Virus record (IMG/VR): IMGVR_UViG_3300038307_000092
Coordinates: 1 to 42,918 of that record
Direction: 5' to 3' (one strand)
DNA from: a virus
Length of the DNA stretch: 42,918 nt
Both the position numbers and the translations under genes were made by a program. Numbering within the stretch: the stretch's first letter is position 1; each line of letters begins with the position of its first letter. Below are positions 1 to 19,617 of this stretch, in pieces. The notes below the pieces were generated by a model. The model did not search any database and was not told the origin of the DNA. It worked only from the letters and a program-made list of their open reading frames with translations.

Positions 1-3000
1 GGTGATGTTCTAATTCCTACGTCACCCTTCTTCGTAGATCGGTCGTAAGTACCGAGTGCTACGACCTGCTTATGTCTGAGGTCTGTCTCGATGTCTACAC
101 TATATATCTTATCAGAATAAATCCAAGCTTCTTGATCAGCAAACTCAGCTGCATTAGGGTCTACTTCTATTCCTAACTGTGTTAATAGACTCTGCGTAGC
201 TTGTATATATCCGCTAGACTCAAACTCTTGATCGACTGTTAGGGTAACTGCATCCCAATGACCTGTATCTTTCAACCACTGGATAAAGGCTTGCTCTGGG
301 TTCTGAGCTACAATAGCTTCGATCTCCTCGTCTCCCTTAAACCCGGCTTCGAAAGCATACTCTCTAGCTTTGAAGTAGAACTCATTATCATTAATGAACG
401 ACTCGATATCATCGAAAGCAGACATCTGCTTATAAAGCCCGGTAGCCTCCTCGATGATTGGAGCTAGGTCTACCTTACCTGATCCTTCTGCAAACGTCAC
501 ATTGAACACATCGGCATCTAGGAACGGAAGGAACATACTAGGAGTCGAAGCTCTTCGATCTCCTAAGATCATTAAGGCTCCTAATATCGTAGCTACTCCC
601 CGTGCCTTATGGCCAGCCTCTCCTGAGCCTGTTCTTGCTAAGCGGATCTTAGCGTCTAACTTAGACTTAAGGTTGAAGAGGGGTGTAGACAAGCCTTGCT
701 TATCTCCCGCCTCTAGGCTATACGAGTATTCCACTAAAGGAGAAATAAGAGCTTCCACCCAAGGCTTCTTCATTCCGGGGATAGGTGCAATAGAGCCGCT
801 CTGATAAGCGTCGAGATCTACTACATCTAAAGCAAACTTACTCAGAGAAATCCCCTTATCTGAAATCATCCGTGGGGTCTCAGATTCTAATGCTTGTGCG
901 AGGATTGTAAAAGCTCGGCTAATCTTAGCCGCCTTCTCTATATTATGCCGTGTAGTGAATCCGATAGCTGATCGAATAGAGTCCTGTACGGAATCAGCTC
1001 TAATAGGCCTTCCGTCATCGCCCTTCTTCCAACCAAAGGTTTTGCCTAAGAGCTTTGCCTGCTGCATCTCATACAGTGGTTCTATATTGTCTATGATACC
1101 AAATAACTGGAAGGCAGACTCAGCTGTCAGAGCAACCTTAAACTTCTGACCTATTAGTTTATACATTCTAGGGGCTCTGGTTAAGAAGCCGAATCCTATC
1201 TCAGCTAGGCCATGTCGCCCCCTGAAAGAGATCTCCTCCTTCTTTCCTCTAGTCGTGCTCTCAGACACAGCATGCTCTAAAGCGAATTTCACGACGCTAG
1301 GTTCTAAAGACCCATCGTTTATCGCTCTAGCTATAGAGAATTCTAAGGTTACAGTCGTACCTTTCTCACCCCTAGCCTTAAGTTTGGCTATCTCTATGAT
1401 AGAGTTACGATCCTCTCTATCAATAACCTCTTCCCACATACGGGGGTCTTTATAAGCCTTTTTCTTTTTTCCTTTCAGGTTCGCATACGGCTTAGTTCCG
1501 TCCGGTCTCTGGTACGTTTTCAGCACAGGAGCAATATAGTCTTGGTATAAGAAGATAGGCATGAACCTCTTGGAGTCATGGGCTTGGATAATACCAGACT
1601 CAATGGCCAGATCCTTCATGATATTCCGCCAAGAGATTTGGTTATCTCCAATCACTTCCTTCCATAAAGCTACATCTGCTTGGTCTGTTAAAATAGGGAC
1701 ACCCTCAACAGGCATCAAGGGGAACCTAAGCTCATCAGAAATCAACGTATCCTGTAGTAACCGACCACGGGGGTTATCCTCACTCTGAAGGTCTCCTGTA
1801 AGAACATCTTTCCATGTATCCTCTAAAGCAATTCTACTCTGGACCGCTAAGGGGTTGGCTTCATTAGCCAGTACTAAACTATTGTGTTCTTTCTCTTTCA
1901 TATTTCTAGAGACTTCGGATAACATATGAAGAGCAGATAGCCACTGTTCCCTTCTATGTATAATCTGATCATCACTCATATCCTTCGCCGCATAGAAGAT
2001 CATCTCTTCTCTGATCTTCTCGATCTCTTTAATAATATGTAAATATGGATAGACGTTCCCCGGATCCTTATATACATAAGGTTGTAAGCCTCTCTTAGCT
2101 GCCCAAGTATCTATATCTCTCGCTAAGTCACCTGCCAAGAAACCATCCTCATCGGCGGCTATCCCCTTGAGAGATAAGTAATCAATAGTAGTGGTTGGTG
2201 CTTGGCCCACGTCCTCTCTTTTCCAAGGTACGGCCCAACCCATTGCGTCTCTATTCTTATAGGCTGCTGGTCCCGTGAGGTCCTCCATAGAATGCTTAGT
2301 ACCTAGTAATTCCTGAGCCTTGTTTTGCAGCACCCTTCGCTGCAAGGCTAAGACACCCCTATCTCCGAACGGTAGTTCGTGGTATAAAGGTCTCGTGCTT
2401 AGAATCCCCTTCGGTGGGCTAGAGTCAACGTAACCCCCCTCATCTCCTTCAGTTCTTCTATACGGTCTCTTAGCATAGCCCGATCTTAGGGCAGCTTCGT
2501 CTGAACGAATAGTTCCCATCTTACCCTTAAGTATCAATTCTTCCGTAGACATCTCAGACTCGAGTTGCATCTCCATCGGGAGTTCTGTACTCATTCGATC
2601 TGAGTGATCTATCCACCTACTCATCAAGTCTTGATAGAATCCCGTATCTGTATCCTCTACAGTATATTCAGGGAATATACTTGCTGGTGGTTTTTCATAA
2701 GAAGCCCACCACAACATCTGCTGCATATCTAATAAGTGATCTATTTGAGCTTCGGCCTCACTCTCTGATAAGTTGTGGAAAGGGTTATCCACTAAGTCAT
2801 AGAGCCCGAGGGCCTTATCTGCGTCCTCTACGTTTAAGAATTCTCGGAAGGCAGCTTGAGTATTCTTTGGTGTCCATTCTGTCCCAGCGGCTGTAGCTTC
2901 TTCCTTCTGGTTATTTATATAATCTTCAAATGTTCTGAATGGGAAATCAATAATCTTACCACTCTCTTTATCTCGGATTTTAACTGTAGTACTAGCTACT

Positions 3001-6000
3001 CTATCCGCGAACACGCCTGTTAGTGTTGACAGAGAAACAAGAGCTTGATACTCTCTATGCGACATCGTACTCCACCCAATAGGGAAGTATAGGTTTCGAT
3101 TTAAGAGTCCTCCAACTTGGTGTTCAATATCGATCCCGCTGAGTCCTAACGCTTCCACCAATAACTTAGCTCTTTCTAAATTAATTCGATGCGCAGAAGC
3201 ACCTAACATATTCAATGCCTTGAAAGCCCCTATCTCATTCTGAGGAACTTGGAAACCCATAAGCTGTTCCATGTAGAGTAGATCCTCATTCGTCAGTGTC
3301 TGCCCTTTTTTAGTCCTGAGGAAATCCTCTACCGCTTGGATCTTATCGGCATATCTAGCTTTTGTCTTTCCTAGTGTCTCCTCGTTCAATACCCCGTAGT
3401 CTAAACGCGTAATCTTATTTAACCCCTCATCAAAAAGCTTCTTTGCGTCCTTCGCTCTAATAATAGAAGAGGCTTGGGTAGCTCCCATAGGCTTCGCTTC
3501 GGTACTTGTAGTGAAGTTAGCCTCTCCCACACTGCCGTTCTTTCCCTTCATATGAACTACAGCATTACCTTCAACTCTAGAATCAAGGGATCGTGCTTTC
3601 ACGGCTGAGTCCCACTCTTCTGCTAAGTCTGATACTAAATCAAAGTGCCCTTCTCTGGCTCTATCGAGACCCAGGAATCGTGTTACAGCTAGCTTTACTT
3701 GGGGGGTTATTCCGGTGACTTCTTCGAGGACGTTCTGTCCTTCTGATAAAGCCGTACTTAGATCCTTCGTGGTTAAGGAGAAGAGTGCCTCGCCTAGGGC
3801 CAAGACTTCAGCTCCGTCTCTCTGATAGAAATCATACCCTATTGCTGCACCCAATGCTGTGACTGCTTTAGTACCTTCACCGCCGGGCTTCAAGAATTCT
3901 TTCTTAAAGTTATTCAAGGCACCAGAGTATACAAGTCTCATGACTGGTGGTTTGAATATAGCCCTTATCTTACCCGTGAGTTCAGAAGAAGCTCCTTTTA
4001 ATTCTTCTACTGAATTAAAAGTAGATAGTTCCAGAATCGTCTCACCTAGTTTACCCATAGCTTTTATGGTATCGTGGTCTTGGTTCTCTTGTATCATCTT
4101 AGAGAGACGTAACCCTGTACCTAGATAGAAGTCTTCCGCTTCCTTAGTAGTGAACTTACTATGTTTTAGAATGGTCTCGAAGAGACCATCCTTTTCAATA
4201 GCTCTTGCTATCTCCTTAGTACCGTGTTCTTTCTTTAATACTTCTACTAGAGCATCTATAGCTCCGGGATCAGAAGCCAGAGATAAGGCCTTCATCTCAT
4301 AGATACCCGATCCTGTTCTATCTGATTGGTTCTCGTATGAGAATAACTCATGTAGACTCATGTTAGGATTTTTGGACCGCCATTCACTAAACCTCGCGGC
4401 TTCTGTTGCAATAACCCCTGCGGTTAACCCCTCATATATAGGAGACATCTGCTCAAAGGCTAATACCTCTCCGATCATATGATACGGCACTAAGATATCA
4501 TCACCATGAGAGAAAGCTGGTAAAAAGTTGTTTAACTCCCCCCTAAATCTCATTGGGTTGTCCCTGCTCGCAAGAATCTGGTCATATATCGTAGAGAAAG
4601 CTAGGTTAGGCATCCTATACAGATAATCATTCAACCAACTCTTCAGCGTCTCTTTGGATGGGATCGTTTGATCTAAAGCTCCTCCCACCGTTTGGGGAAT
4701 TACTCTAGTACCTAAGGAGAAGCCTGTGGGATTAGGGGTCCCTCTCTCGTTAACGGTCTGAATGAACTCCGCCAAAGCTTCTTTCTGCTGTGTTGTAAAG
4801 GAGTCATGACCTAATATGTGATTAGCTCTGCTCCAAAACCTATGTTGATTAATGATACCGGCAAGATGATACAACGCTATAGGAGCCATTCGATTACTCT
4901 CACCGAAGACGGCTTCTACAACCCTTAACGATTCCCCTGCCTTCATGACTGCTTCGTTGTTGAAGGATGCTTCTGTCGATTCTCCGGCATGCGTAAGACC
5001 CCACTGCCTAGCTAAGGGGGTATTTGTAAGCATGTCTACGAGTCCTGATCCCACCTCCGTAGCAGCAGCCCAATCTATATCCCCGTTACCAAAGCCCTCG
5101 ACAGTCCACCTAGTATCTTCAGTATCAGGTGTTAAGTCTCCTATCTTTCGCACAATAAGCGAGGCAATCTCATCAATAGTTACTTCATCGTGAAAATCTT
5201 CCCCTAATTGATCCATGATTTCCGCGAAGACTTGTTCTTTTACGTGCCCCCTCTCGGATCTTGTCTTAATTCTTAGGCGGGCGGCGATAGCTGTTATTAC
5301 CTCGTTTCTATAAAGACTGCCATTATGTTTCTCGGTTTCCCCGAATAATATAGGCTTTCCTGTTACTTCATCATATGCTTTAATATACCCTTGCTTTCTC
5401 CACATATCTCCATAAATAGGTCTAAAGGAGTCTTCCATATTCTCTATGAATCGGATCGCCACAAAATAGTTCATCACATCACTTGGGTTATCCCCTTGCC
5501 CTATGATCTCCCTCTCATAAGCTTCCGCTAGCTTTCGTCTAGCGTCCGATGTCCAGTTAGCCATACGACCCACAGCACGAGCGTGCTCAAGTTTCGCGAT
5601 CTCTATTACTTTATGAATACCATACTTACTTTCAGCCAGCCGCCCAGCATTCGCTGCGGATGATTTCATAGGTCCTGTGGTCTCTCCTTCCAACATAGCT
5701 GCTTGGAATACCTTGTGAATACCGAGTCCCACGTCCTTAAACATCTCAGGCATTACACCATATATTCTATCCGCGTCTACATAGGCCTTATCTCCTACCA
5801 TCTCAAAGGCTTCGCTATGGGCGTTTCGTAGGATACTCTTAAGACCTTCTGTATACGCCGCCCACCCTAAACTACTTTGGTATAAGGCTTCTGGGGAATC
5901 TTCTGCGATTTGAAGCATCGCTGGTTCTTTGAAAATACGACCAGTTGATATAGCAACGGGACGGCCTTCACTTTGTCGGAGGATGCTTGGGTCGGCTTTT

Positions 6001-9000
6001 TGGAATAAGACTTTTTTCTTTTTCTCTAGTGATGTGAAATTCACGTTTAATTCTGCGAGCCTAGAGTCGGGTGCCTCCGTAAGGGCCTTTTTTAAGGCGG
6101 TATAGTTGGCCCACTCTTTTTTAGGTATTGTAGTACCTGATCTTTGAATTACCTCCATCCGCCTAAAATAGATTAACCAATAAGCAGGAGAATGTTTTAA
6201 AGTCTCAGGATAAGAATGCAGGGCCGCCTCCCAATCTTCTTCAGTCATTGTTTTATCTTTATCTAAAAATTTATCTTGTCCGAATACCGTGGTCTTAAGG
6301 TGGTGTATCATTTCATCTACATGGAGCCGCCCCTCTTCGCCAGTCTTTATACCAAAAGCCTGTGTCGCTTCCTTCCAAGTTAAAGGCCTTCCCGTTTTCT
6401 CTTTTATATCTCTCAAGGCTTTCTTATCGGAGTGTGCTTCGTTTAATAGGTCTATTATCAGCAATAGATATTGTCTTTTCGCGTGATATAAATAAACTTC
6501 CTTTTTTATTTTTGCTGCTTCTTGTCGAGAATAATCCCACTGCATGTAGCCCCGCCTTCTTCCGTCTTGTGCAGCGGGCTCATCAAGCTCTACTTTATAA
6601 CGGAGTAGCGGAAGATTTATAGTCCCACCCTTTGCTACAGCAGAGTCAAAATGATCTGAGTATTTCTTCAGTAAACTTTTACCAGCCTCGGTTTGTGAAA
6701 AATTATCTAAAAGTGCTTCGGCCCAAATTTTTCGTTGTAGTACTCTTTTTGAACGATGCCTTGAATTCCATATAAAGTGATACCCTTCATGAGCTGCTAT
6801 TACAGAAAAAGCTTTTATTTTCATTTTTGAATTAAGGACCATGTGAATTCCGGGAACTGTATCCCCTTCGCCCCCAAACCGAAATGGAGCAAAGTATGCT
6901 TCGGTATTTTTTCGCTCTCGAATAGGATATAAACCTTCTTCTGTTATATCCGCTACTAAATGCAACAATAGTTTATCATTATCTATTAACTGTTGCAATA
7001 CCTCTCTACCACCAACTACTGTTGCCAGAGCCTCAAATATAGCTTTTGATCTTTTCTTATAGGTCCCCAGTCTAAGCTTATGTATAGCCTCTGAAATCAT
7101 ATATTTAAGTACAGAGGGTGTTAAGACTTCTGGGGATTTTTCTAAACCTTCTGTTATAGGGCCTGGATCAAGTTCTGTTTTTGCAGGGATCTCCTCCAGT
7201 GATTCTAGAAGATACAGCTCATTCAAATCTTTTTCTTTTTGGAAGTAAGTATCCATATCCATCATTCTTAATTGCTCATTTACATCGATCCCCTCAAGCC
7301 AACTTGGAATCCAATCTTCTCCCAAGTCACCCCTCTCGCCTGCCGTTTGTTCTCTGACTCTATGGTACCACTCTGCTCTCAATACGTCTTGTTCATTGCT
7401 GTATAACCCTGACACCCAATGCTCTTCTATATATCCCTCTAATTGTTCTATAAGAACCCGGCGAATATGTGGGTCCGTGAAGGCATCCAAGGGCACCCGT
7501 TCCTGAGATGTCTCTAACTCATCTAGTTGTAATAGTACATTAAGGCCTACACTTATGGCACCCTCCTCTTGTAGTAAAGCCTCAGAAGCAGTATTAAAGT
7601 CATCTTGGGTTCCCTTCTTAAAGACAACGTCTTCCCGTGTAAGACCCGTAGTTTCCAGTAACTCTGCAACAGCCACGGCCTCTGCTGGAGTTAATCCAAA
7701 TGCTTTTTCTATCGTGCTAGTTGTGTTCGCTCTAGTTATTGAACCTACAGTATCGGAAGAGATGGCCTGTCTTGACACCAAAGCATCAAACACCCTCTTA
7801 ACCTCGGGTGTTATGTCTACCCCCTCTAAGGACGTTCCTAAGATCCCGTTGTAAATCTTAGCGATGATGTTTCCCAAGGTTCTGAAGACGCTCTTAAGCC
7901 TCTCTCCAGCATTCTCAGGTGCTTCACCTGTTCGTATGTATCTTTCAAATCCACGAGCAAACCTCTCCTCTGCCTCCTGAGTCCAGTTGCTGTCATCTGC
8001 TCCTGCCCATGTCTCTAAAGCTGTGAGATCCTCTGGTGTGATTTCGTTAGCTTGATATAAGACCTTTTGTCTTAAGACGTGGGCGATCTCGTGGATAGCG
8101 GTGGATACATCAGCACCCTCGAACGCCGTGATCAAGGAAATACCGGCCTCCTGTATTTGGACCATGCCCTTAATTCTGTGTCCAGCCTCATTCCAGACTC
8201 CTTCTGAGCCGAAGGGTTTACCGGGGGTGGAGTTTGCCAACACCTCAGCAGCTGTGAAAGCTACCCAAGGTGCTTGATCGTTCGATCTTGTTAAAGGATC
8301 CTGCGAGGTTCTCTTTCTATTGTTTTGAGCCATCCTGAACAAGGACCCCGGTGTTTTATTCTTAATGTTTTCTAGTGCAGATTTCTCAGACTTATTCATT
8401 ATAGCAATAGCTTGGTCAGCTGTGATCTCTTGGTGTCTAAACCTAGACAAGGCTTCTCCAGTCAACTCTGTTAAACCAGTAGTGTAAACAGTAGATTGTA
8501 CGGAATGCGGGGATACCCACGCCCCAGCTCGGTCTTTTCCTATAGGCTCAAACATTTCTCCGTAGAGGAATACGACCTCTTCCCCAGCTTCCTTAGCTGC
8601 CTCTCTTCTCTGTGCCAATACAGCATCGAACTGACTCCGTCGCTCCGCGATCAACTTCTTCTCAGCCTTCCTGAAGTTAATTACTCTATCCCATGATGCG
8701 AGTCTGTCATGTCTTCTATTAGAGACGCGTTCCCACCGAACATCTAAGGCTGTATATAGTGTATTAAGAACATCCATTTGCTCTGATAGCTGGTCTCTAA
8801 GAGCGAAGTAACCCTCGTGTCTCGTAAGTGCAGCCAGTCTAGCCGCCTCTGCTGTCTCTGCTCCTTGTGTCATCACGTCTATCACGGCCTTACGAGTCAG
8901 GGTTTTAGCCGCGATCATCTTATTTAACGAAGCCACAACCGCAGTATCGCCTCTCTTCTGTGCGAGGTTCCTTAGTCGTGTCAACCTAGATGTAATTAAA

Positions 9001-11552
9001 TTAAGATTCTCAGTAGATAGGTTTGCTTTCCTAACCCGAGCAGCTGCTGCCCCTTTTTTTGTAAGAGGAAATAAAGATAGAATCCTATCAGCAGCTTTAA
9101 CAAAAGCATTACTTGTTCTTCTATAGCTTCTGAACTCCGATTCAATAGTAGCGGCATCGGGATGCTCTGTTATCTGTTTCGTGAGATCACGGATGGTAGC
9201 CTCTAGGTCCATAAGCTTAGAAGATTCTTGTCTTGTTATAACGGTCCCTAGATTCTCTAGTTGAAGTAGGATAGAATCGAACTTTTGTTTTATTACTCTG
9301 ATATCAGATCTTATCTTCGTAATCCGATCCTTCTCATCCTGAGCGTTGTCGCGAGCCTCTTCTGCGGCTGTTATCTTATCAACCGATCCTTCAGCTTCTG
9401 CCTCGGTTAGACCTTCCTCCGCACTTTCTAACGCTTCAGTTGCGTTTGTTTCCTCTTGTTGCCACGCTTTATCCACGTTATTCAGATCGCTCAATCCCCT
9501 ATTTGTTCTCACGGCGGTTGTATTCGCCCTACCTCCGCTCCTAGTTGGTGAGGATACAGGCGATACCGGAGAGCCATCGGGTACAGGAACCTGACTTGCC
9601 TCGGTTGTAACACCATCGGCTTGTGTAGTAATCTCTTGTTCTTCAGCTACTATCCGGTCTTTCTCTTCTTGATCAATCTCCAGAGCCACCATAAACTTCT
9701 CATCGAAGTCCATAGCATCAGGGTCTTTCCCGTCATCTCTGATACGTTCTCGAACAGCCGCGTCTAATTCCTCGTCAACAGATACTTCGTATTGGTGAAT
9801 GTCTCCTGAATCTAAGCCATCAATTACCTCTTGGGCTGATATGTTATGCTTCCTGCCATACTTCTGTATATCCATTATCTGTGATATTTGTGATCTAACT
9901 TCTGCTAGAATGGAAGGACTGTCTACGGCGGCGTTAATTTCCGGTAATCTCGTTAGATTATCATAAGCTGCTAATAAGATCTCAGAGGGAGAGTAACCCC
10001 TCTCTCTATCTGGAAGAGCATCTAATGCTTTTTCTAAAAGGTCTAGCCCTTCTTCTCCATGTAGCCCAAGCCTCTTCATCATAATAGATAAACTAAGACC
10101 GACATCTGAAGAACCCTCTGAGTCTAAACTAAACTCACCTACGTCCCCAAGGGAAGCACCTTCCTCTAAGTGAGGTTGGATCTTTCTACCAATTCTATCA
10201 ATTAATTCAGCCCGGTCTAACCACATCCCACCTACCTCAGGATCCATTAATGTTTTGGTGGTTTGGAACACCTCTAATACCTCTCTACTAAACTTCCCAT
10301 ATTTAGAGGCTTTCGACTTTGCACCTAAGGTGAAGGGTAGAGATAACGTCCCTGCTACTGTTTTACCACCGAGATGAAAAGCACCACCCATAACAGGATT
10401 AATAGCAGGACTGAGAAGAGCTTCGAACACCGTCTCGATACCTATTCTACCCCAGTCTACATCCTTCTGGTGTCTTAATGCTACCCTTCTCTTTTGGTTT
10501 CTAAACTCCGCTAAGAATCCCGTGATCGTACCTTCCATTGCATTACCTAGGGTATAGACCCCAACTCTCTGTAAACGAGAGAACCTTTGATATCTATCCC
10601 GGCCAATTTTAGCACGTAGGATAGCCGGTCCAATATTCTCTGGCAGTGCATATTGCAGTTTTACGAACTTTTGTGCTATATTAACAGAACGTCTAGCGGC
10701 TTTAGTAGCCCCGAAAACCCTACTAGCGATAGAGGCATAAACAGAGAAGCCGCCTGTAGGCACCAAGAGAAGTAAGGACAACGCCGTACTAGGTACTAAA
10801 TCTGGATCGTTTATAATACCGTTAATAACTAGATTCTTTGTCCAATCATAACCGATTTCTAAACTACTAGCGTTATCGTAGAAGTGTTTCATTGACTTCC
10901 CTACTTCTACTTTTCTACCAGCATCAGATAACCTATAGAAGAACTCTACAGGATTCTCTGAATTTTTCACTATATCATATAAAGCATCCCTCGAGCCAAA
11001 CATCTCGAGGTATGTCCGAACCCGCTCAGGGTCCCTCTCGATAAGAATATCCAAAGCCTCCTTCGGATCCCAATCCGCAGGGCCTTCGCTTAAAATCATA
11101 TCTGTGATGTCAGACACACCCGGTACTCCTACCCCGCCCCATTGATCCCACCAGTTCCATCCCGACAAGGATGCAGAGTAGTCTAGTGCGTCTTGCTGCT
11201 CATTAGAAAAATCTAACATAGTACCCATATATAGGTTCTCATTCCTGATATGATTAATACGTTCTGCGAAGTACCGCATTGTAGAGGTATTCTGAGCCAT
11301 ATATCCTGTCTGATAATCCTCAGCCATAGAGTCCCAAGAAGCTACGTTGTGGTCTAAGAACCCTTTATAGGCTTTACCATCAGAGGTCTGAATAGAGCGT
11401 GTCTCGAGAGCGGCACGATTCCATAAGCCTTTGGTCGGTAATGCCATATATCTGTCTAGTTGGTTTTGTCTCTTTTCTGCTAAGCTTCGTTGGAGTTCTC
11501 TATCGGTACTGTATATAGGTAGCGGATTATTCATCCATGAACTAGTTGTCAT
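1..11552 (-). CDS. Giant internal virion/ejection protein with two zincin motifs (3' end missing)
   Basis: This reading frame starts at the ATG at 11552, behind AAGGA with an 8-base spacer, 14 bases after the stop of the 1587-residue gene. I checked it triplet by triplet to base 3 and found no stop, giving at least 3850 codons; the C-terminus lies outside the window. Position in the internal core operon suggests a role like T7 gp16, which is ejected into the cell, but it is about three times longer. Visible parts: hydrophobic, glycine-rich stretches near residues 245-275 and 380-410 that could insert in a membrane; an acidic linker and long charged coiled coil at about 690-995; HEIAH at 1154-1158 followed by an EERFARGF motif near 1195-1202, as in metallopeptidases of phage polyvalent proteins; and HEGYH at 1588-1592. 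The remaining C-terminal part is mainly helical and unrecognised. I saw no lytic transglycosylase or RNA polymerase motifs. Delivery of a protease with the genome is inference. Confidence 0.9.
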   Translation of the reverse strand, partial: MTTSSWMNNPLPIYSTDRELQRSLAEKRQNQLDRYMALPTKGLWNRAALETRSIQTSDGKAYKGFLDHNVASWDSMAEDYQTGYMAQNTSTMRYFAERINHIRNENLYMGTMLDFSNEQQDALDYSASLSGWNWWDQWGGVGVPGVSDITDMILSEGPADWDPKEALDILIERDPERVRTYLEMFGSRDALYDIVKNSENPVEFFYRLSDAGRKVEVGKSMKHFYDNASSLEIGYDWTKNLVINGIINDPDLVPSTALSLLLLVPTGGFSVYASIASRVFGATKAARRSVNIAQKFVKLQYALPENIGPAILRAKIGRDRYQRFSRLQRVGVYTLGNAMEGTITGFLAEFRNQKRRVALRHQKDVDWGRIGIETVFEALLSPAINPVMGGAFHLGGKTVAGTLSLPFTLGAKSKASKYGKFSREVLEVFQTTKTLMDPEVGGMWLDRAELIDRIGRKIQPHLEEGASLGDVGEFSLDSEGSSDVGLSLSIMMKRLGLHGEEGLDLLEKALDALPDRERGYSPSEILLAAYDNLTRLPEINAAVDSPSILAEVRSQISQIMDIQKYGRKHNISAQEVIDGLDSGDIHQYEVSVDEELDAAVRERIRDDGKDPDAMDFDEKFMVALEIDQEEKDRIVAEEQEITTQADGVTTEASQVPVPDGSPVSPVSSPTRSGGRANTTAVRTNRGLSDLNNVDKAWQQEETNATEALESAEEGLTEAEAEGSVDKITAAEEARDNAQDEKDRITKIRSDIRVIKQKFDSILLQLENLGTVITRQESSKLMDLEATIRDLTKQITEHPDAATIESEFRSYRRTSNAFVKAADRILSLFPLTKKGAAAARVRKANLSTENLNLITSRLTRLRNLAQKRGDTAVVASLNKMIAAKTLTRKAVIDVMTQGAETAEAARLAALTRHEGYFALRDQLSEQMDVLNTLYTALDVRWERVSNRRHDRLASWDRVINFRKAEKKLIAERRSQFDAVLAQRREAAKEAGEEVVFLYGEMFEPIGKDRAGAWVSPHSVQSTVYTTGLTELTGEALSRFRHQEITADQAIAIMNKSEKSALENIKNKTPGSLFRMAQNNRKRTSQDPLTRSNDQAPWVAFTAAEVLANSTPGKPFGSEGVWNEAGHRIKGMVQIQEAGISLITAFEGADVSTAIHEIAHVLRQKVLYQANEITPEDLTALETWAGADDSNWTQEAEERFARGFERYIRTGEAPENAGERLKSVFRTLGNIIAKIYNGILGTSLEGVDITPEVKRVFDALVSRQAISSDTVGSITRANTTSTIEKAFGLTPAEAVAVAELLETTGLTREDVVFKKGTQDDFNTASEALLQEEGAISVGLNVLLQLDELETSQERVPLDAFTDPHIRRVLIEQLEGYIEEHWVSGLYSNEQDVLRAEWYHRVREQTAGERGDLGEDWIPSWLEGIDVNEQLRMMDMDTYFQKEKDLNELYLLESLEEIPAKTELDPGPITEGLEKSPEVLTPSVLKYMISEAIHKLRLGTYKKRSKAIFEALATVVGGREVLQQLIDNDKLLLHLVADITEEGLYPIRERKNTEAYFAPFRFGGEGDTVPGIHMVLNSKMKIKAFSVIAAHEGYHFIWNSRHRSKRVLQRKIWAEALLDNFSQTEAGKSLLKKYSDHFDSAVAKGGTINLPLLRYKVELDEPAAQDGRRRGYMQWDYSRQEAAKIKKEVYLYHAKRQYLLLIIDLLNEAHSDKKALRDIKEKTGRPLTWKEATQAFGIKTGEEGRLHVDEMIHHLKTTVFGQDKFLDKDKTMTEEDWEAALHSYPETLKHSPAYWLIYFRRMEVIQRSGTTIPKKEWANYTALKKALTEAPDSRLAELNVNFTSLEKKKKVLFQKADPSILRQSEGRPVAISTGRIFKEPAMLQIAEDSPEALYQSSLGWAAYTEGLKSILRNAHSEAFEMVGDKAYVDADRIYGVMPEMFKDVGLGIHKVFQAAMLEGETTGPMKSSAANAGRLAESKYGIHKVIEIAKLEHARAVGRMANWTSDARRKLAEAYEREIIGQGDNPSDVMNYFVAIRFIENMEDSFRPIYGDMWRKQGYIKAYDEVTGKPILFGETEKHNGSLYRNEVITAIAARLRIKTRSERGHVKEQVFAEIMDQLGEDFHDEVTIDEIASLIVRKIGDLTPDTEDTRWTVEGFGNGDIDWAAATEVGSGLVDMLTNTPLARQWGLTHAGESTEASFNNEAVMKAGESLRVVEAVFGESNRMAPIALYHLAGIINQHRFWSRANHILGHDSFTTQQKEALAEFIQTVNERGTPNPTGFSLGTRVIPQTVGGALDQTIPSKETLKSWLNDYLYRMPNLAFSTIYDQILASRDNPMRFRGELNNFLPAFSHGDDILVPYHMIGEVLAFEQMSPIYEGLTAGVIATEAARFSEWRSKNPNMSLHELFSYENQSDRTGSGIYEMKALSLASDPGAIDALVEVLKKEHGTKEIARAIEKDGLFETILKHSKFTTKEAEDFYLGTGLRLSKMIQENQDHDTIKAMGKLGETILELSTFNSVEELKGASSELTGKIRAIFKPPVMRLVYSGALNNFKKEFLKPGGEGTKAVTALGAAIGYDFYQRDGAEVLALGEALFSLTTKDLSTALSEGQNVLEEVTGITPQVKLAVTRFLGLDRAREGHFDLVSDLAEEWDSAVKARSLDSRVEGNAVVHMKGKNGSVGEANFTTSTEAKPMGATQASSIIRAKDAKKLFDEGLNKITRLDYGVLNEETLGKTKARYADKIQAVEDFLRTKKGQTLTNEDLLYMEQLMGFQVPQNEIGAFKALNMLGASAHRINLERAKLLVEALGLSGIDIEHQVGGLLNRNLYFPIGWSTMSHREYQALVSLSTLTGVFADRVASTTVKIRDKESGKIIDFPFRTFEDYINNQKEEATAAGTEWTPKNTQAAFREFLNVEDADKALGLYDLVDNPFHNLSESEAEAQIDHLLDMQQMLWWASYEKPPASIFPEYTVEDTDTGFYQDLMSRWIDHSDRMSTELPMEMQLESEMSTEELILKGKMGTIRSDEAALRSGYAKRPYRRTEGDEGGYVDSSPPKGILSTRPLYHELPFGDRGVLALQRRVLQNKAQELLGTKHSMEDLTGPAAYKNRDAMGWAVPWKREDVGQAPTTTIDYLSLKGIAADEDGFLAGDLARDIDTWAAKRGLQPYVYKDPGNVYPYLHIIKEIEKIREEMIFYAAKDMSDDQIIHRREQWLSALHMLSEVSRNMKEKEHNSLVLANEANPLAVQSRIALEDTWKDVLTGDLQSEDNPRGRLLQDTLISDELRFPLMPVEGVPILTDQADVALWKEVIGDNQISWRNIMKDLAIESGIIQAHDSKRFMPIFLYQDYIAPVLKTYQRPDGTKPYANLKGKKKKAYKDPRMWEEVIDREDRNSIIEIAKLKARGEKGTTVTLEFSIARAINDGSLEPSVVKFALEHAVSESTTRGKKEEISFRGRHGLAEIGFGFLTRAPRMYKLIGQKFKVALTAESAFQLFGIIDNIEPLYEMQQAKLLGKTFGWKKGDDGRPIRADSVQDSIRSAIGFTTRHNIEKAAKISRAFTILAQALESETPRMISDKGISLSKFALDVVDLDAYQSGSIAPIPGMKKPWVEALISPLVEYSYSLEAGDKQGLSTPLFNLKSKLDAKIRLARTGSGEAGHKARGVATILGALMILGDRRASTPSMFLPFLDADVFNVTFAEGSGKVDLAPIIEEATGLYKQMSAFDDIESFINDNEFYFKAREYAFEAGFKGDEEIEAIVAQNPEQAFIQWLKDTGHWDAVTLTVDQEFESSGYIQATQSLLTQLGIEVDPNAAEFADQEAWIYSDKIYSVDIETDLRHKQVVALGTYDRSTKKGDVGIRTS
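6690..6930 (-). other. Second HExxH site (HEGYH) within the giant protein
   Basis: HEGYH is encoded at 6777-6791 (residues 1588-1592), inside a hydrophobic helix-like segment (FSVIAAHEGYHFIW). A short beta-like run (VPGIHMVLNS) precedes it, which is the usual strand-then-helix order of zincins. The family is not recognised, and a third zinc ligand cannot be assigned by eye. The local sequence is clearly more AT-rich than most of the gene. Confidence 0.45.
7683..8225 (-). other. Zincin-like metallopeptidase domain 1 (HEIAH) within the giant protein
   Basis: The HEIAH codons lie at 8079-8093 (residues 1154-1158). They are preceded by a GADVSTAI stretch and followed by EERFARGF near residue 1195, which could give the third zinc ligand. 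A conserved-looking tail follows, reading roughly RLKSVF, IYNGILG and ITPEVKRVFDAL. This layout is what I know from the metallopeptidase domain of phage and plasmid polyvalent proteins. The domain borders are estimates. Catalysis is inferred from the motif alone. Confidence 0.7.
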
Positions 11553-11566
11553 TTAGGTGTTCCTTA

Positions 11567-14500
11567 TCAATTGTTTTCATTTATTGATTCAAAATAGTCA
11601 GCGTCGGTTATCTCATTCCCTCTCTCGTCTCGTCTGATTTCTCTGGGGAAATCAAGCCTCGGAGGCCTTGGACTTCTTTGAGGAGGAAAGTTAATACTAG
11701 GCTTTTTTAAAGATCCGTCTACAATCGCGCCTTGATTCGCCTTGGTTCCGTAGGGGGTAAGATGACCTGTATACAGCCCTGCGTCTTGTAAAGCCCCTAC
11801 TCCTAGATCCCTAGCTCTCAGAGGAACCGCAAAACCCTCGGGAGCTATCCATTTCACAACAGAGCCGTCTGATTGCTGGATATTTAGACGGGCTCTCATT
11901 GGTAGTCTAGGGTCATCTGGACTACCAACAACATCAAACCACATATGATTAGCATAAATTGGCATAGTCAAACCGTTGTGCAGGGGAATCTCCACCCGAC
12001 CAAAAGCCGCTAATGTTAGACTACCCTCCACATTACTTGACTCAAGTTCACCTACTCTGACTAGATGATACAATACTTCCGCTACCATATCCATAGCAGT
12101 AGGGTCATATATACCATTGTTACTGCGTTCAGAAGCTACCCTAGCCCGTATCTCTGTATCTGTAAGCCAGATCGTTCTTCCTTCCAAGGGCTCTATTATC
12201 TTAAATTCAAAATGATCAAGCTTATTGCCCTCTTCGTCTACGCTTCGCCTGTCGCTGTATTTATAGGCCGGAGTAATCGCCTGACTACCGAAATATTCTG
12301 TAGGTTCCGCTATATCAGTTAACGATGTCATATAGTTCTGGTAGTTTTTAGTAGCCCTAAAATCAGATACGTTGTTTAAAGCCGCTTCATAATCTCTAAC
12401 TACTTTCTGAACTAAAAGGCCCACGCCTCTTTGCTCCCCATAGGTCTGTCTTGTATAATTTTTTTGGTTCCGGATTTTCCTATGAAAATCATTGAAGTGT
12501 TCCCATATAGGCTTCGTCACCGTTGTCTCTATTCCATCTACCTCCCGCGTTATACTAAATTCCTCAACGGACAGCTCGTTTTCCACTATGTGTGCCATTA
12601 GTCGCTCTCGCTGCTGGGCGGGGGTTTCTCCCGCCCGTAGTCCTAGTTCAGGTGAAGATGAGATATACTGCTCGAGTATCTCTTTCGCTCTCTGATCGAA
12701 GGTCTCCCTTTTTTCGTTAAAGCCCTCAGGCGCATACTCAGGAGGCCGACCGTCTGCTACTGCTTTTAAAACCATATACTTATATAAGGCCGAGTCATTG
12801 TTACTTATTGTGGAAGTCCCAGACCAAGCTGCTTCCTTGATAAACTTATCTCTCTCCTGGATCGTATCGAGTATTCTATGCATCCCTGTCTTTCTACGCT
12901 CCACCCGAGCCTCCTGCTCGAGTATTGTTAGGCCGGTATCCTCCCCGTCATCTGGGGTATCATCGGTATAAATTAGGCCCGGTGTATCGTTTAAGTGCGA
13001 TAGGAAATTCGGTGTGAAAACACGCCCTAATAATGTCTTGAGATTTTTTATATTCCTTACGTTATAGTCAGTAGGTCCTCCTGCACTAATGAGTAATCCA
13101 GTAGGGTCGGTCCTATCCACTAAACGGGTCCACCACTGAAACCACGCCCCCGGACCCTTTTCATACTGTCTTAGGGGGTCCTCTACGTGATTTACTACAT
13201 CGTGTAACGAGGAGTCTAAAAGACTATTGTCCCTAACCACAGCCGTCAACGCTATGTGGGTTGCGCTATCCCCTCGATGCATACCAATGGCGCGTTCGTT
13301 CGATACTGGTCCAGTCTTTTTTACCATCCTCGCTATATTCTCATCAATCCACTGATAGCCTCCCCCTGTTACAATAGTGTGCTCGGTCATATTGGGACCA
13401 TCTAGATTTATAATAGTCTCCATTATCGCCGGTAGCGATTCTATAGGAATACCCTTCCCCATTCGTGTTACTACGGCTGTGAATATACGCTCCGTGTTAA
13501 AGCCAGGAATGCTCTTGCTCAGGGCTAATGAAGACAGCCGCCGGAACAGCACGTTTTCATAGGCTTGTAGAGTACCGTTCTCCGCCGCCGCAGCAAACAA
13601 AGCATTATCAGCATCGCCACCGACCGCAGCTAAAGCTACCCTTCGTGCTCCATCTATGGTTTCAAGAGAATTTAAATCCCATCCATTGTTCCTGAGCCAC
13701 TCACGGACCTTAGGAGCAGTCACCAAGGTTTTTCCAAAAATAAATTCGTCGGCGATCTCGCCCCACCCGATAGTCTCATCGGTTAGGGTCATAAGATTCG
13801 TCATCTCTCCCCTCAATGCACTTGGGATTTCCGTAGAGTTTCCCGAATTCCGTGCCTGTGATTCCTGTAGTGCGGTTATAGCGTTAAGGGTAACCTTTTC
13901 AATTTGTTCTTGTATGTTTTTTACCTCGTTTGCGATGTCCGTGCCCGGCTCACCAGTAAGCTTCGCCCATAAATTACCGTTTAGGAGTTGTGGGGCTTTA
14001 ACTCTCAGGACAGCTAGGAACCCCCGCATCGTACTCAAACTATCCCCGTTCTCCAAACCGAATACTTCCCAAGCTTCTTGATTAGCCTTAGTACTAGCGG
14101 GTGTGCCCACTATTTGATCTAATACTAATAGGAATTGAGCGACGTTTGCAAGTTGCTGTAAATGATCTGGGTTGGTGGGATCAATGTCCTGTGAGAAAAT
14201 ATTTAAGTCTTTTATAGCATTTGTGGCCCATTGTTTTATCCTAGGCCCTACGGATTCATCTTTGTTCTCCGTAGGAAAAGCTTCATTAGTCTCATATATG
14301 GCTAGTAATAAAGGAGCTAAATCCCAAGGAGGCAGCGATTCCAATACAAGAGCCCCGGCTTGTGCGGGTATACCTGTAGTGTTTATCCAAGGCAGTTCAA
14401 CCTCTTCGGGGGTCCCTAATCCTGAAGCTTCATGCAAATTTTTCCTATTTGTATTATACCGGGCCGTGATATATTCCCGTGCTAATTTCTGGGCTGCGAT

Positions 14501-16330
14501 TGCTACTGGATCCCCGAGTTCTATAGCTCTAGTTGACTGGTTATTGCTCCCTAAAGCAATCTCAACTACACTGACTGAGGTAGTATGAACCATTCCTGTG
14601 GTGAGTGTTGCTATGACTTGAGCCCCAATTAACGTACCAGTCTCCGTCGTTGGGTGGAGTTTGTGAGACCTTGCTGTGTCGGCCTGTGCTTTTGTGAAGG
14701 TCTTTAAGAATACTTCTATCTGTGGATCTGTATAGACTCTCTGCTCAGGGGGATTCTCATACTCATCCAGCATGGCCTGCTGGATAGTAAATAGATCTTG
14801 ATAAGATACCTCTCCCATCTTATCAGGATCCACCCCCGGTATCGACACCTCCGAACTCTTAATACCTATTCCCACTAAATCAACAACAATACGCCCATGT
14901 ACATACGCGGGATCTTGTGCCTGTTCCAAAAAGTCCCGTTCTCTTATGTTATCTTTCCGAACCTGTTCTTTGAATTCTTCAAGGACATCCCTGAATTTCA
15001 TTCGTTTGGTTTCGTCGTTTCCGAGCTCATTGACAAAGTCTTCTACTGGTCTGGTTAGATCAAAACCATGAAGCGATAAATATCCTTTTAAATCTAAATC
15101 CGAAGGATCTCCTCCCTCTTCTAAGGCGACTGAGATGTTCCTGCCTCCCATTACCTCGGTTGCTAGAGACACGGTCTCATAAAGACTTTTTAGCTCCTCC
15201 TCCTTTATGCCAGGTTGGAGATAGTATTTTTGACCGAATCTACCCGCTAAATCAACAAGGGTGTTTAATGCTCCGTCTTCGACTTGTGTTTGCAATATTT
15301 TAGATTTTAATTCATGTATATTTCCCGCCCGAGGCGAAGTGTGATGTCCCAAATTGGTGAGGAAAATCCTTGCATTTTCGTGAGTAAGCTCGTGAGTCCC
15401 ATCATCCCCGTCAACTTGCCCAAGAGCTGTCGCAGATACCGCTGACATCATTGAAACGGGTCCACTAACTTGGGACTTATTTCTATCTCGCCACGAATCC
15501 GTTAAATCACCCGTTAAACCCGGTTGAATATTTTCGAACACATCCTTAGCCTGTGGGTCTAAGCCCACCATTAGGTCTTCCCAAGGTAAGACAACACCGT
15601 CAAACTGTCCCTTGGTTACGGCTTCAGCAATGGATTCTTTAATAACCTCAACTACCAAAGCATTGGGATTCTGTTTTACCTCGGATAGGATTTCATCTTT
15701 TAATTCCGTTATAAAATCATCCGTGTGTAAGGTACCTAGAAGACCGGGACCAAACGTCAAGCCTAGTGACAAGTCTACCATGCCTTCTAATTCCTCATGA
15801 GATCTTACATCAATCACCTGAACACCTTCAAAACTCCTCTCGAGTTTATTCCACTCAGTAGTTTGCTTTGTAGACATCTCACCAGCGAACATCACCTTGT
15901 TGACTGCTTCTGCTTTTTTAATGGTCTTGTTCACGTTACTAGGTTTCGAACCTGTGTAGAACTCCTCTAAAGAAACTGCTTCATTACCGGGAGAGATTCT
16001 ACCACCTTTTGGGTAAACAACTTCAGTACCTTCTGTTAGAAAGAAATCAGGGTCCTTATAAGGAATACCCGCTAATTCTTCGCTACTAACACCGAACTCA
16101 TTTTGATATCCCGTAAGGTCTTCTTCAAACTTAGTTTTTCTTTTCTCTGATTCCTCTAGATTCGTAACAGGTTCTTTATCAGCATTGTGGTAGTTCTTAG
16201 CAGCATCTTGTATAATACCCCTAAGCCCTACGTACCGTCGCTCTCGATCTCCCTCCAACCCCATAGTCTGGGCTCTCTCACGGAAGGTCCTCTGAAATGT
16301 TTCTAATCCTTTTAGATTTTCTTCAAACAT
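11567..16330 (-). CDS. Large internal virion protein, T7 gp15-like by position (1587 aa)
   Basis: A soluble-looking, acidic, mostly helical protein of 1587 residues, about twice the length of T7 gp15 (747 aa). It lies between the lysozyme-bearing protein and the giant protein, which is where the gp15-type ejection protein sits in T7-like phages. Its ATG overlaps the stop of the upstream gene by 8 bases, and AGGGAG lies about 9 bases before it. There is no signal peptide or clear membrane segment. The C-terminal 60 residues are proline- and arginine-rich. A HELTH string occurs near residues 313-317 but lacks a zincin-like context. No specific enzymatic domain is recognised; the role as a core or ejection protein is inferred from position and size. 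Confidence 0.75.
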   Translation of the reverse strand: MFEENLKGLETFQRTFRERAQTMGLEGDRERRYVGLRGIIQDAAKNYHNADKEPVTNLEESEKRKTKFEEDLTGYQNEFGVSSEELAGIPYKDPDFFLTEGTEVVYPKGGRISPGNEAVSLEEFYTGSKPSNVNKTIKKAEAVNKVMFAGEMSTKQTTEWNKLERSFEGVQVIDVRSHEELEGMVDLSLGLTFGPGLLGTLHTDDFITELKDEILSEVKQNPNALVVEVIKESIAEAVTKGQFDGVVLPWEDLMVGLDPQAKDVFENIQPGLTGDLTDSWRDRNKSQVSGPVSMMSAVSATALGQVDGDDGTHELTHENARIFLTNLGHHTSPRAGNIHELKSKILQTQVEDGALNTLVDLAGRFGQKYYLQPGIKEEELKSLYETVSLATEVMGGRNISVALEEGGDPSDLDLKGYLSLHGFDLTRPVEDFVNELGNDETKRMKFRDVLEEFKEQVRKDNIRERDFLEQAQDPAYVHGRIVVDLVGIGIKSSEVSIPGVDPDKMGEVSYQDLFTIQQAMLDEYENPPEQRVYTDPQIEVFLKTFTKAQADTARSHKLHPTTETGTLIGAQVIATLTTGMVHTTSVSVVEIALGSNNQSTRAIELGDPVAIAAQKLAREYITARYNTNRKNLHEASGLGTPEEVELPWINTTGIPAQAGALVLESLPPWDLAPLLLAIYETNEAFPTENKDESVGPRIKQWATNAIKDLNIFSQDIDPTNPDHLQQLANVAQFLLVLDQIVGTPASTKANQEAWEVFGLENGDSLSTMRGFLAVLRVKAPQLLNGNLWAKLTGEPGTDIANEVKNIQEQIEKVTLNAITALQESQARNSGNSTEIPSALRGEMTNLMTLTDETIGWGEIADEFIFGKTLVTAPKVREWLRNNGWDLNSLETIDGARRVALAAVGGDADNALFAAAAENGTLQAYENVLFRRLSSLALSKSIPGFNTERIFTAVVTRMGKGIPIESLPAIMETIINLDGPNMTEHTIVTGGGYQWIDENIARMVKKTGPVSNERAIGMHRGDSATHIALTAVVRDNSLLDSSLHDVVNHVEDPLRQYEKGPGAWFQWWTRLVDRTDPTGLLISAGGPTDYNVRNIKNLKTLLGRVFTPNFLSHLNDTPGLIYTDDTPDDGEDTGLTILEQEARVERRKTGMHRILDTIQERDKFIKEAAWSGTSTISNNDSALYKYMVLKAVADGRPPEYAPEGFNEKRETFDQRAKEILEQYISSSPELGLRAGETPAQQRERLMAHIVENELSVEEFSITREVDGIETTVTKPIWEHFNDFHRKIRNQKNYTRQTYGEQRGVGLLVQKVVRDYEAALNNVSDFRATKNYQNYMTSLTDIAEPTEYFGSQAITPAYKYSDRRSVDEEGNKLDHFEFKIIEPLEGRTIWLTDTEIRARVASERSNNGIYDPTAMDMVAEVLYHLVRVGELESSNVEGSLTLAAFGRVEIPLHNGLTMPIYANHMWFDVVGSPDDPRLPMRARLNIQQSDGSVVKWIAPEGFAVPLRARDLGVGALQDAGLYTGHLTPYGTKANQGAIVDGSLKKPSINFPPQRSPRPPRLDFPREIRRDERGNEITDADYFESINENN

Positions 16331-17756
16331 CTTTAGGTTCTCCCTTTTTCTTTTTCGGCTCGGTATATATCCACTTTCCGTCCTTGTTCTTCGACCAATT
16401 CTTATGATTAGTTCTGTAGGTTTCTTCGTCTAAGATAGCTTGACGAGTAGCGTCCATTCTATCCTTAACGCTAGATGCTTTATACGTGCTGTGCAATCGA
16501 TATTCCTCAGAGTCAATGAACTCCTTCGCTGCTTCTTTAAAATCCCCTGCCCTTAGACTTGCCCTAGCTTTTGTACTATAGCCCCAACCCCCACGGTACG
16601 TGGAGTCCACTAAGAATTTCTGTAGGTTAGGAGACAAACGATCAAAGATAGGTGTTTTACTATCTCCGTCTGTTTTTGAACGTGCTCTGGTTATATACGC
16701 TGGTAAGTCCTGTTTAAACAAGGCCTTGGCTTGGGCTTGGGTAAGGGACACAAGTCCCTTCTGTAAAGCAGTGTAGTCCACCTTAGGCAATGCAGACGCT
16801 ACAGCAGCTCTGCTCCTCTTACTTCCATCTAGAAAGTGCCCTATTCCAACAGTCCTATGAGCCTCCTTCTCTAGTACGAACTTAGGAGTGGTGATCAGGC
16901 CTTCGTTTTTAATTAATAATGTAGATGAGTTCGTGATCAAGGTCTCTGCTGGGGTCGCTCCCATAGCGATGTAGGGTAGCATACCCATTACCCCTGCCTG
17001 TGGAGGTATGAGACTACCTCGCAATTTTTTTTGGAACTCTTGATCCTTATTATCTTTTATAACTTTATTTAATAAGCCTTTTGAATCTGAGCCCGACCTA
17101 GTAGGCGGGGGCTTTGAAATCACAGGAGTCGGTGATGCGGGTGTTGGAGTCGGTGCTGCGGTTGTTGGAGTCTGTGCTGCGGTTGTTGGAGTCTGTGCTG
17201 GGGTTGTTGGAGTCTGTGCTGGGGTGGTGGTGTAGATGGACTTTAATGGGGCGGTTTGTTCCCTATCATTACTATCCCCTCCCGATGTTACCGAATAGGG
17301 GTCTCCAAGTGTTCGCTTGCTTCTTACGTCTCCCACAGCCCCAGCGGTACGGCCTCTTTGTATGTCTATTTTGTTTTGTTCTCTCGCCTCATTAGCATCA
17401 AATTGCTTATCAAAATTCTTTTGCTCTCTTATTTCACGTAACCACCACATTTTATCGTCTTCGTGTTCCCTGATTAGGGCCCTAGCCGTCGCCTCTTTCT
17501 CTAATCTTCTCGCCCTGCGGAAACTAAGAACAGAGCCAAGGGTGTCTGAGATATGTCCGTGAATACTGGACGCTGAGTTTGCAATATTCCTATAGGAATT
17601 AATAGCATCGCTAGAAACAGCTAGGTCCCATTGCGATACTTCGCGTCCCTCTCCTAGAGGTACGCTTGATGTCTCTGGTAATTCTGGTGAAGGAGCATCA
17701 ACGTGTAAGTTAGGCATCTCGTTTTCGATTTTAGTTTTAGCCCTATTCTCATCCAT
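16323..17756 (-). CDS. Virion-associated lysozyme (GH24-like) internal core protein
   Basis: A 477-residue protein. Residues 1-175 are charged and helical. Residues 177-219 are a Thr/Pro/Ala linker built from AQTPTT repeats. Residues 272-445 resemble phage T4 lysozyme (GH24): KNEGL with Glu285, then TVGIGH at 302-307, then helices matching the C-terminal lobe, including FLVDSTYRGGWGY at 381-393. The enzyme should cut the glycan strands of peptidoglycan, probably locally during genome entry because it sits among ejected core proteins; a lysis role is also possible, as no separate endolysin is obvious here. The catalytic spacing is unusual (E-x10-E-x5-T rather than E-x8-D-x5-T). The start overlaps the upstream stop by 8 bases. 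The last residues are lysine-rich. Confidence 0.85.
   Translation of the reverse strand: MDENRAKTKIENEMPNLHVDAPSPELPETSSVPLGEGREVSQWDLAVSSDAINSYRNIANSASSIHGHISDTLGSVLSFRRARRLEKEATARALIREHEDDKMWWLREIREQKNFDKQFDANEAREQNKIDIQRGRTAGAVGDVRSKRTLGDPYSVTSGGDSNDREQTAPLKSIYTTTPAQTPTTPAQTPTTAAQTPTTAAPTPTPASPTPVISKPPPTRSGSDSKGLLNKVIKDNKDQEFQKKLRGSLIPPQAGVMGMLPYIAMGATPAETLITNSSTLLIKNEGLITTPKFVLEKEAHRTVGIGHFLDGSKRSRAAVASALPKVDYTALQKGLVSLTQAQAKALFKQDLPAYITRARSKTDGDSKTPIFDRLSPNLQKFLVDSTYRGGWGYSTKARASLRAGDFKEAAKEFIDSEEYRLHSTYKASSVKDRMDATRQAILDEETYRTNHKNWSKNKDGKWIYTEPKKKKGEPKDV
17115..17240 (-). repeat. 21-base tandem repeat encoding the AQTPTT linker
   Basis: A unit close to gttgttggagtctgtgctg (plus strand) recurs in phase within the lysozyme-bearing gene, with drifting outer copies. 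It encodes the Thr/Pro/Ala linker before the lysozyme domain and may vary in copy number through slippage. Confidence 0.8.
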
Positions 17757-18762
17757 TTCCTAATCTCCTATCTACGTTTTGCTTTATCTGCTTTACTTGC
17801 CTTGCGCGGAAACGTACTAAGTCCCTTTCATCTACAAATCCTTGATGATTCATGCGAGCTGTTGTAACGTCATTAATCATTCTTCTTGTTTCCTTCAAAG
17901 GATCCTTCGACTTACTTGCAGCATCTATAATAATATTAATCTTATGCTCATCTAGGATGACGGGGTTAATCAAATCTTCAGCCAATAACTGTGCTATCTC
18001 TTCTTCCCCTCTCGCTACATTATCCCGAGCTCTAGCGTTAGCTAAAGACATTTTCGTCTTTACTAATGGCTTCAGGTACTTATGATATATCAGCTGTTCC
18101 TCGGCTTCCATTGGGTTTTCTTCGTCCCCTAGTGTGTGTGATGGTGTGATATTACCGTTCTCAGCGAACCCAATCCTACCATTCCCATCTACATCTATAG
18201 CATCGTGTCCTCTTTGATACAGGCGTAACCAGTCGTTTGTATGAACCTCAGACGGAACCTGTTGGTCTAACTTGCTATAATCCTCACCTTCTAATCTAGT
18301 ATTCAACTCTAGGCGATGCAGAATAATACCTCGCTCGATATCCTTTGCGTCATTAGCACTCTTGAGATTCATGAAGTGAGTTTCTAACTCATCATACATC
18401 TCCATAGGCCAAGATCTAAACTTCTCCCGGAAGATCATCTCCTGATCTTCGGGTGTCTTTCCTCTGAAGGAGCTTAACACTTCCGATTTCATGAACCCGG
18501 TAGCATCTTCATTAGAGCCGGGATATAGCTTCTTAAAGGTATCCCAATACTCTTGGTTTGTACCCCCAACAAAATCCCATGTATTGGCTACCTCTGAGTT
18601 CCACCTATTCCACCGATCTTGGGTATCTTCTTTCGCGGATTCTGCTAAGAATGTTCTATTATCTGTGATCTGCTGTTGCCCTATGACTTCAGACATATTG
18701 GGCATATCTGTCGTAGGAACTCCTGCCATAGATCGCAATGCTTGTAGATTAGATTTACTCAT
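17749..18762 (-). CDS. Internal virion protein with an EF-hand loop (337 aa)
   Basis: Not recognised as a whole. It is a soluble, helical, acidic protein lying between the gp14-like and lysozyme-bearing core proteins, so it is probably also a virion or ejection component. Residues 190-201 read DVDGNGRIGFAE, a perfect EF-hand calcium loop with Asp at positions 1 and 3, Asn at 5, Gly at 6, Ile at 8 and Glu at 12. The segment before it (residues 174-189) could be the entering helix. Only one such loop is visible. The ATG at 18762 follows the upstream TAG after a single base and is preceded by GGAAGGCGGA. Calcium binding is inferred from the motif. Confidence 0.8.
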   Translation of the reverse strand: MSKSNLQALRSMAGVPTTDMPNMSEVIGQQQITDNRTFLAESAKEDTQDRWNRWNSEVANTWDFVGGTNQEYWDTFKKLYPGSNEDATGFMKSEVLSSFRGKTPEDQEMIFREKFRSWPMEMYDELETHFMNLKSANDAKDIERGIILHRLELNTRLEGEDYSKLDQQVPSEVHTNDWLRLYQRGHDAIDVDGNGRIGFAENGNITPSHTLGDEENPMEAEEQLIYHKYLKPLVKTKMSLANARARDNVARGEEEIAQLLAEDLINPVILDEHKINIIIDAASKSKDPLKETRRMINDVTTARMNHQGFVDERDLVRFRARQVKQIKQNVDRRLGNG

Positions 18763-18763
18763 G

Positions 18764-19552: not shown

Positions 19553-19563
19553 ACATGCCTCCT

Positions 19564-19597
19564 AACGGCTTTCAGGCCGTTCTGGTACCTCAGTACC
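19564..19597. other. Tandem hairpins between large terminase and core genes
   Basis: Two perfect short inverted repeats lie in the 65-base gap. AACGGC (19564-19569) pairs with GCCGTT (19576-19581), and GGTAC (19584-19588) pairs with GTACC (19593-19597). Neither is followed by a T-run on the minus strand, so a classical terminator is unlikely. An RNA-processing or mRNA-stabilising role before the core operon is possible. Confidence 0.4.
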
Positions 19598-19617
19598 TCT
19601 TTAAATCCAAAGTCCTC

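Follow-up and report, generated by a model that had tools for sequence, protein, structure and literature searches.

Results

A giant gene at the edge of a T7-like contig

At the left end of the window (the whole stretch of DNA analysed, an entire IMG/VR record of 42,918 bases) lies a giant gene, g1, whose stop codon falls beyond the end of the contig:

3..11552 (-), g1, giant gene, 3850 codons, ATG start, 3' end cut by the contig end
11561..11565 (-), AAGGA, ribosome-binding-like site before the g1 ATG, read from the sequence; the same AAGGA precedes the giant gene of G017, a sister phage introduced below

A preliminary description had reported that this minus frame stays open from 11552 to base 3, and it does, over 3850 codons with 0 stops and 0 N, as against 111-362 stops in each of the five alternative frames across these positions. 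When codon usage was scored with a model trained on eleven other genes of the window, the g1 frame was positive in 11 of 11 blocks of 350 codons (+0.12 to +0.32 bits/codon), and the other two minus-strand frames scored -0.60 to -0.95 bits/codon. The stop of the preceding gene, g2, is 14 bp from the g1 ATG.

Outside g1 and the genes that adjoin it, the recognisable genes are structural:

19618..21294 (-), g6, terminase large subunit, T7 type (phrog_38, E=1e-92)
22265..24748 (-), g8, tail fibre-like protein (phrog_2710, E=1e-6)
24758..28555 (-), g9, tail tubular B-like protein (phrog_457, E=1e-72)
28552..29217 (-), g10, tail tubular A-like protein (phrog_446, E=3e-18)
29311..30525 (-), g11, major capsid protein (phrog_267, E=1.5e-33)
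30717..31607 (-), g12, scaffold/head assembly protein (phrog_1052, E=1e-16)
34205..35797 (-), g15, portal, or head-tail adaptor (phrog_449, E=2e-103)

The T7-type terminase, portal, capsid and tail tube A and B are all present by PHROG match and T7-type RNA polymerases are found in the sisters, which supports the original assignment to T7-like phages. Since the sister G001 carries such an RNA polymerase (phrog_414, E=2e-162) together with a primase-helicase and a gp2.5-like SSB, the window must be without the early part of a genome of ~65 kb; homologues of the polymerase occur in other sisters, and the corresponding region is missing from the window. The window phage is T7-like (Autographiviridae-type), with a genome of roughly 65 kb. 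A side observation concerns g20 (39808-40347 (-), 179 aa, no PHROG match), which holds THTAILIRYGDG and by eye resembles papain-like proteins of the NlpC/P60 or YiiX type.

Sister phages carry the complete gene

Scanning IMG/VR with a terminase alignment yielded contigs of one clade with terminases 50-78% identical, several of them 57-68 kb long, and a scan with the HExxH domain described below added G017, whose terminase is 85% identical to that of the window. End repeats of 141 bp in G001 and 123 bp in G012 suggest that these two genomes, near 64-66 kb, are complete. Seven sister phages (terminases 58-85% identical) each have one giant ORF at the position of g1, and N is absent inside all seven:

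G001, 4728 aa
G003, 4764 aa
G007, 5139 aa
G009, 3542 aa
G010, 4267 aa
G012, 3580 aa
G017, 5489 aa (619 kDa)

The giant of G017 is the closest relative, a complete gene collinear with the window ORF, and aligns with g1 at 30.6% identity over aa 33-1341 and at 42.5% over aa 1793-3845 (2097 columns). Those of G001 and G003 match g1 at about aa 1-411 and 1915-3657 with 24-30% identity, and those of G009, G010 and G012 are far more distant, being paired with g1 by position, size and flanking genes, with a marginal sequence match or none. Beyond the aligned end G017 continues for 1873 residues and G003 for about 1490, so the complete g1 product probably comprises, by extrapolation from these homologues, about 5.3-5.7 thousand residues, some 600 kDa. 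The preliminary description had put g1 at three or more times the length of T7 gp16; the part in the window falls just short of this (3850/1318, or 2.9 times), and it is the complete G017 relative that exceeds it, at 4.2 times.

Since the window is a contig from a metagenome and g1 is truncated at its end, an assembly or sequencing error that fuses several genes into one frame has to be considered. That reading is largely refuted by independent contigs from other samples, which present the same single, N-free frame with collinear homology, and we regard it as hardly credible. The question originally raised, whether homologues would instead prove to be several separate genes, was followed up in the same relatives, and each shows one gene (seven single ORFs of 3542-5489 aa). 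That g1 is a single, real and uninterrupted giant gene is confirmed.

Other searches reached little beyond the clade. A first giant-based scan of IMG/VR gave no match, one with an alignment of the giants returned only the two sisters already known, and tblastn of g1 in phage records matched the HExxH domain alone. The C-terminal third of the G017 giant had no match in phage records, and a host search for relatives of the clade terminase found none in 84,980 bacterial and archaeal genomes. In this analysis the giant-gene clade is known from metagenomes only.

Domains along the giant

Comparison with the sister proteins divides g1 as follows:

10320..11552 (-), aa 1-411, conserved N-terminal region, 28-30% identity to G001 and G003
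7773..8171 (-), aa 1128-1260, putative zincin-like metallopeptidase domain, HEIAH at 8079-8093
6153..7652 (-), aa 1301-1800, non-conserved segment, second HExxH (HEGYH) at 6777-6791
3..6152 (-), aa 1801-3850, conserved core, collinear with G017, G003 and G001

The N-terminal region also has a profile match in G007 (96.7% probability), and the conserved core is 42.5% identical to G017 over the 2097 columns and 24-26% identical to G001 and G003. As a whole, g1 had no match in Pfam or PHROG, and a simple hydropathy scan gave no convincing transmembrane segments.

The HEIAH domain has homologues in giants of 1763-3287 aa from other phages, among which HExxH is invariant and a downstream Glu is conserved; where the flank is complete, each of these giants follows an ORF of roughly 420-870 aa. 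It is homologous to a region found in phrog_9880 proteins, and its AF2 model (pLDDT 68) matches phage proteins in BFVD with E down to 3e-7, some of them named ART-PolyVal-like or large polyvalent protein associated; the same model had no significant match among solved structures in the PDB. Motif and homology thus point to a zincin fold and a peptidase activity for aa 1128-1260.

An identity profile against G017 singles out aa 1301-1800 as the sole poorly alignable stretch of g1. Here, at the place of the window's second HExxH, the G017 giant has an ART-PolyVal domain (Pfam, above the curated cut-off), and the alignment shows what appears to be a swap of payload domains between the two proteins. 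A further HExxH lies in the C-terminal third, beyond the window's end, and is common to G017 (residue 4025), G001, G003 and G007. HEGYH (aa 1588) was tried as a copy of this C-terminal domain of the sisters; the two are similar by eye, and hhalign did not confirm the relationship. Beyond the HEIAH domain, no other domain could be assigned in g1 itself.

With an HExxH domain that has homologues and a second such motif in the window, and with the further conserved HExxH at residue 4025 of G017 matched in G001, G003 and G007, g1 might be a polyprotein whose own HExxH domains cut the chain during assembly into a number of proteins, in the virion or outside it, so that no 600-kDa protein would exist in the particle. 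There is precedent on both sides (PMC5512222): DdrB of phage P1, which bears such a domain, is processed before packaging, whereas the N4 virion RNA polymerase (vRNAP) also has a domain of this kind and enters the particle uncut. A cleavage site is not recognisable in the sequence, and we consider processing of this kind unlikely.

A cassette of increasing gene size

Ahead of g1 lie four genes:

11567..16330 (-), g2, 1587 aa, second-largest cassette protein, no sequence homologue detected
16323..17756 (-), g3, 477 aa, C-terminal T4-lysozyme-like domain at about 16398-16916
17749..18762 (-), g4, conserved cassette protein of 337 aa with 14 homologous ORFs at other loci
18764..19552 (-), g5, 262 aa, small cassette protein, gp14-like candidate

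The five genes occupy 3-19552 (19.55 kb) and encode 6513 residues, in agreement with the roughly 19.5 kb and more than 6500 residues first given for them. Their order after the terminase is constant in the sisters, with proteins of about 211-262 aa, 335-375 aa (the step at which G007 deviates), an optional 130-477 aa and 1165-1587 aa (ORFs of 1165-1440 aa at the g2 position of the sisters) leading to the giant, which in the window, the sister genomes and G017 ends this small-to-large series as its largest gene.

The C-terminal domain of g3 is related to T4 lysozyme (phmmer E=0.0019) and has a TVGIGH motif; its match to Pfam Phage_lysozyme (E=0.024) is below the cut-off. At another locus (L024:11830-19272) a 2481-aa protein has at its C-terminus a lysozyme-like domain that shares 47% identity with g3 aa 281-453. 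By sequence comparison, the cell-wall hydrolase appears to move between cassette proteins. The g5 protein has a Gly/Ala-rich hydrophobic start and a long helical hairpin (19 homologues aligned; AF2 pLDDT 69.5), and its model resembles T7 gp14 (8e4g_a, 9jz0) at an E of about 1.9, a value that is not significant and stands among many coiled-coil matches.

The preliminary description had placed g1 where gp16 lies in T7, after gp14/gp15-like genes. This holds in so far as a small-to-large cassette ends in g1, its largest gene. It is not borne out by homology, as hhalign found no match between the profiles of g5, g4, g3 and g2 and the internal virion proteins (gp13-16) of T7 and marine T7-like phages, nor by the position itself, as the cassette follows the terminase gene and T7 gp14-16 precede the fibre and terminase genes. 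'Internal core' is therefore a label drawn from synteny, from the order of sizes and from a single weak fold match, and 'gp14/gp15-like' one drawn from order, size and the non-significant resemblance of g5 to gp14. Between portal and terminase no other candidates for internal virion proteins were seen in the window by PHROG, and it is because the window offers no others that the cassette may be taken, by position, as the internal virion set. The terminase gene stands ahead of the internal-virion-type cassette in the window (18764-21294) and in the sister genomes, the reverse of the T7 order.

g1 lies downstream of the terminase and not within the virion block of the classical T7 arrangement; this, together with the lack of sequence homology to known internal virion proteins, might instead point to a late intracellular effector or a lysis-stage protein that is not in the virion. 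To us this seems quite improbable: the adjoining small-to-large cassette is kept in all sisters, internal virion genes are not visible elsewhere, and giants that lie behind candidate internal virion genes of other phages contain this HExxH domain too.

Apparent exchange between relatives

The sisters G009 (loci L097-L100) and G012 (loci L105-L108) have replication proteins that are mostly 96-99% identical and terminases 93% identical, and giants that share 30% identity over 74% of their length. Because divergence is strong across much of the virion block and not confined to the giant, recombinational exchange of the block as a whole is the simplest reading of these sequences, ahead of rapid change of the giant alone. 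The portal gene of G009 (53710-55294) is present as two overlapping ORFs, a frameshift or an assembly error.

Great length and fast evolution are also properties of fibres, and g1 could on these grounds be a giant tail-associated or surface adhesin. The window has a separate fibre-like gene, g8, after the tail tube genes, and fibre, beta-helix and receptor-binding families gave no match to g1 or its homologues, so that an adhesin strikes us as very improbable indeed.

Discussion

The explanation that we favour, and hold as a whole to be reasonably probable, is that g1 makes up the 5' two thirds of a single giant late gene belonging to a T7-like podovirus, and that it encodes a giant ejected polyvalent protein with a gp16-like role and exchangeable payload domains. 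It is supported by the seven single-frame giants, the coding signal, the constant cassette and the shared HExxH domain, and is weakened by the lack of profile matches to T7 gp13-16 or N4 vRNAP, the position of the cassette after the terminase, the lack of a PDB match for the HExxH domain and the lack of Pfam domains in g1.

In T7 (PMC8954989) and N4 (PMC12633501), the small cassette proteins are ejected first and form a channel, and the giant follows into the cytoplasm. It is by analogy with these systems that we infer, for the g1 cassette, packaging in the virion, ejection and the building of a channel, and also the enzyme activities and their targets. The g1 product would be an internal virion protein filling the role of T7 gp16 or N4 vRNAP: it would sit over the portal inside the head and, once the smaller proteins had left, pass down the tail in unfolded form. 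In the envelope, a trans-envelope channel would be built from the g5, g4 and g2 proteins and the cell wall would be breached by the lysozyme-like domain of g3, and g1, a polyvalent protein, would arrive in the cytoplasm together with the DNA. Its conserved N-terminal region and long conserved core would carry peptidase and other enzyme domains that are swapped between lineages, and the metallopeptidases might either release individual domains by cleaving the chain or have proteins of the host as their targets. That the cassette proteins deliver several enzymes, as first suggested, is plausible; the enzyme-like parts are a well-supported peptidase-like domain and a bare HExxH in g1, and the lysozyme-like domain, which belongs to g3 and not g1.

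Three kinds of known system bear on this proposal, and on this reading g1 is of a kind already known from N4 vRNAP and the polyvalent proteins; its size and T7-like setting are new. The first is T7 gp16, with which g1 shares its place, as the largest gene, at the end of a small-medium-large cassette in a genome of T7 type, and the presence within the cassette of a peptidoglycan-cutting domain. g1 differs in that complete g1 relatives are about four times longer, in that the N-terminal transglycosylase domain was not found in g1, a lysozyme-like domain being present in g3, and in the location of the clade cassette relative to the terminase. Five regions of the giant compared with T7 gp16 and N4 vRNAP by hhalign gave no match. 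The second is N4 vRNAP (Schitoviridae gp50, 3500 aa), an ejected giant analogous to gp16 that likewise contains an HExxH domain (PMC12633501; motif at residue 2228) and also comes last in its cassette (16.5 kDa, 66 kDa, vRNAP). However, its RNA polymerase domain was not found in g1 or its homologues (Pfam, PHROG), and the sister genomes have a separate T7-type RNA polymerase. Finally, the phage polyvalent proteins (MPTase, ART-PolyVal) are likely packaged in capsids and have been proposed to self-process or to act on host targets (PMC5512222, J Bacteriol 2017); likenesses are the HExxH hub domain, the multidomain chain, the ART domain of G017 and domain swapping, whereas most of the g1 chain (the core, aa 1801-3850) is without a match to the domains described.

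The proteins ejected by such phages pass through a channel of 25-35 A (PMC12633501), and a chain of ~600 kDa in a channel a few nm wide would test the limit of unfolding and refolding in ejection. The G017 giant, at 5489 aa, is larger than N4 vRNAP and also than the tape measure protein of P23-45 (5002 aa; PMC10770324). We found no literature on giant internal virion proteins in T7-like phages, and the clade joins the T7 ejectosome to the concept of polyvalent proteins, a connection not found in the literature located. It also provides an alignable set of giants in which the parts serving transit and payload might be located. It is possible, though we would not count on it, that this clade has remade its largest ejection protein into a carrier of 3.5-5.5 thousand residues, with conserved ends and core for packaging and transit and a payload segment in which relatives exchange a peptidase, an ADP-ribosyltransferase or some other activity. 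If this were true, these phages would bring injected enzymes to bear on the host ahead of making an RNA polymerase of their own.

Outside the terminase clade, two smaller giants that follow internal-virion-type genes have the HExxH domain in common with g1 (34-35% identity), namely that of Rhodobacteraceae phage LS06-2018-MD07 (WBK39883, about 3.1k aa) and vir555 DBA35080 (1974 aa, phrog_9880), but the resemblance is limited to about 130-170 residues. On a further contig, in which a relative of the clade terminase was not detected, a 2947-aa giant (L118:847-9687) combines two ART-PolyVal stretches (above the curated cut-off) with the same HExxH domain.
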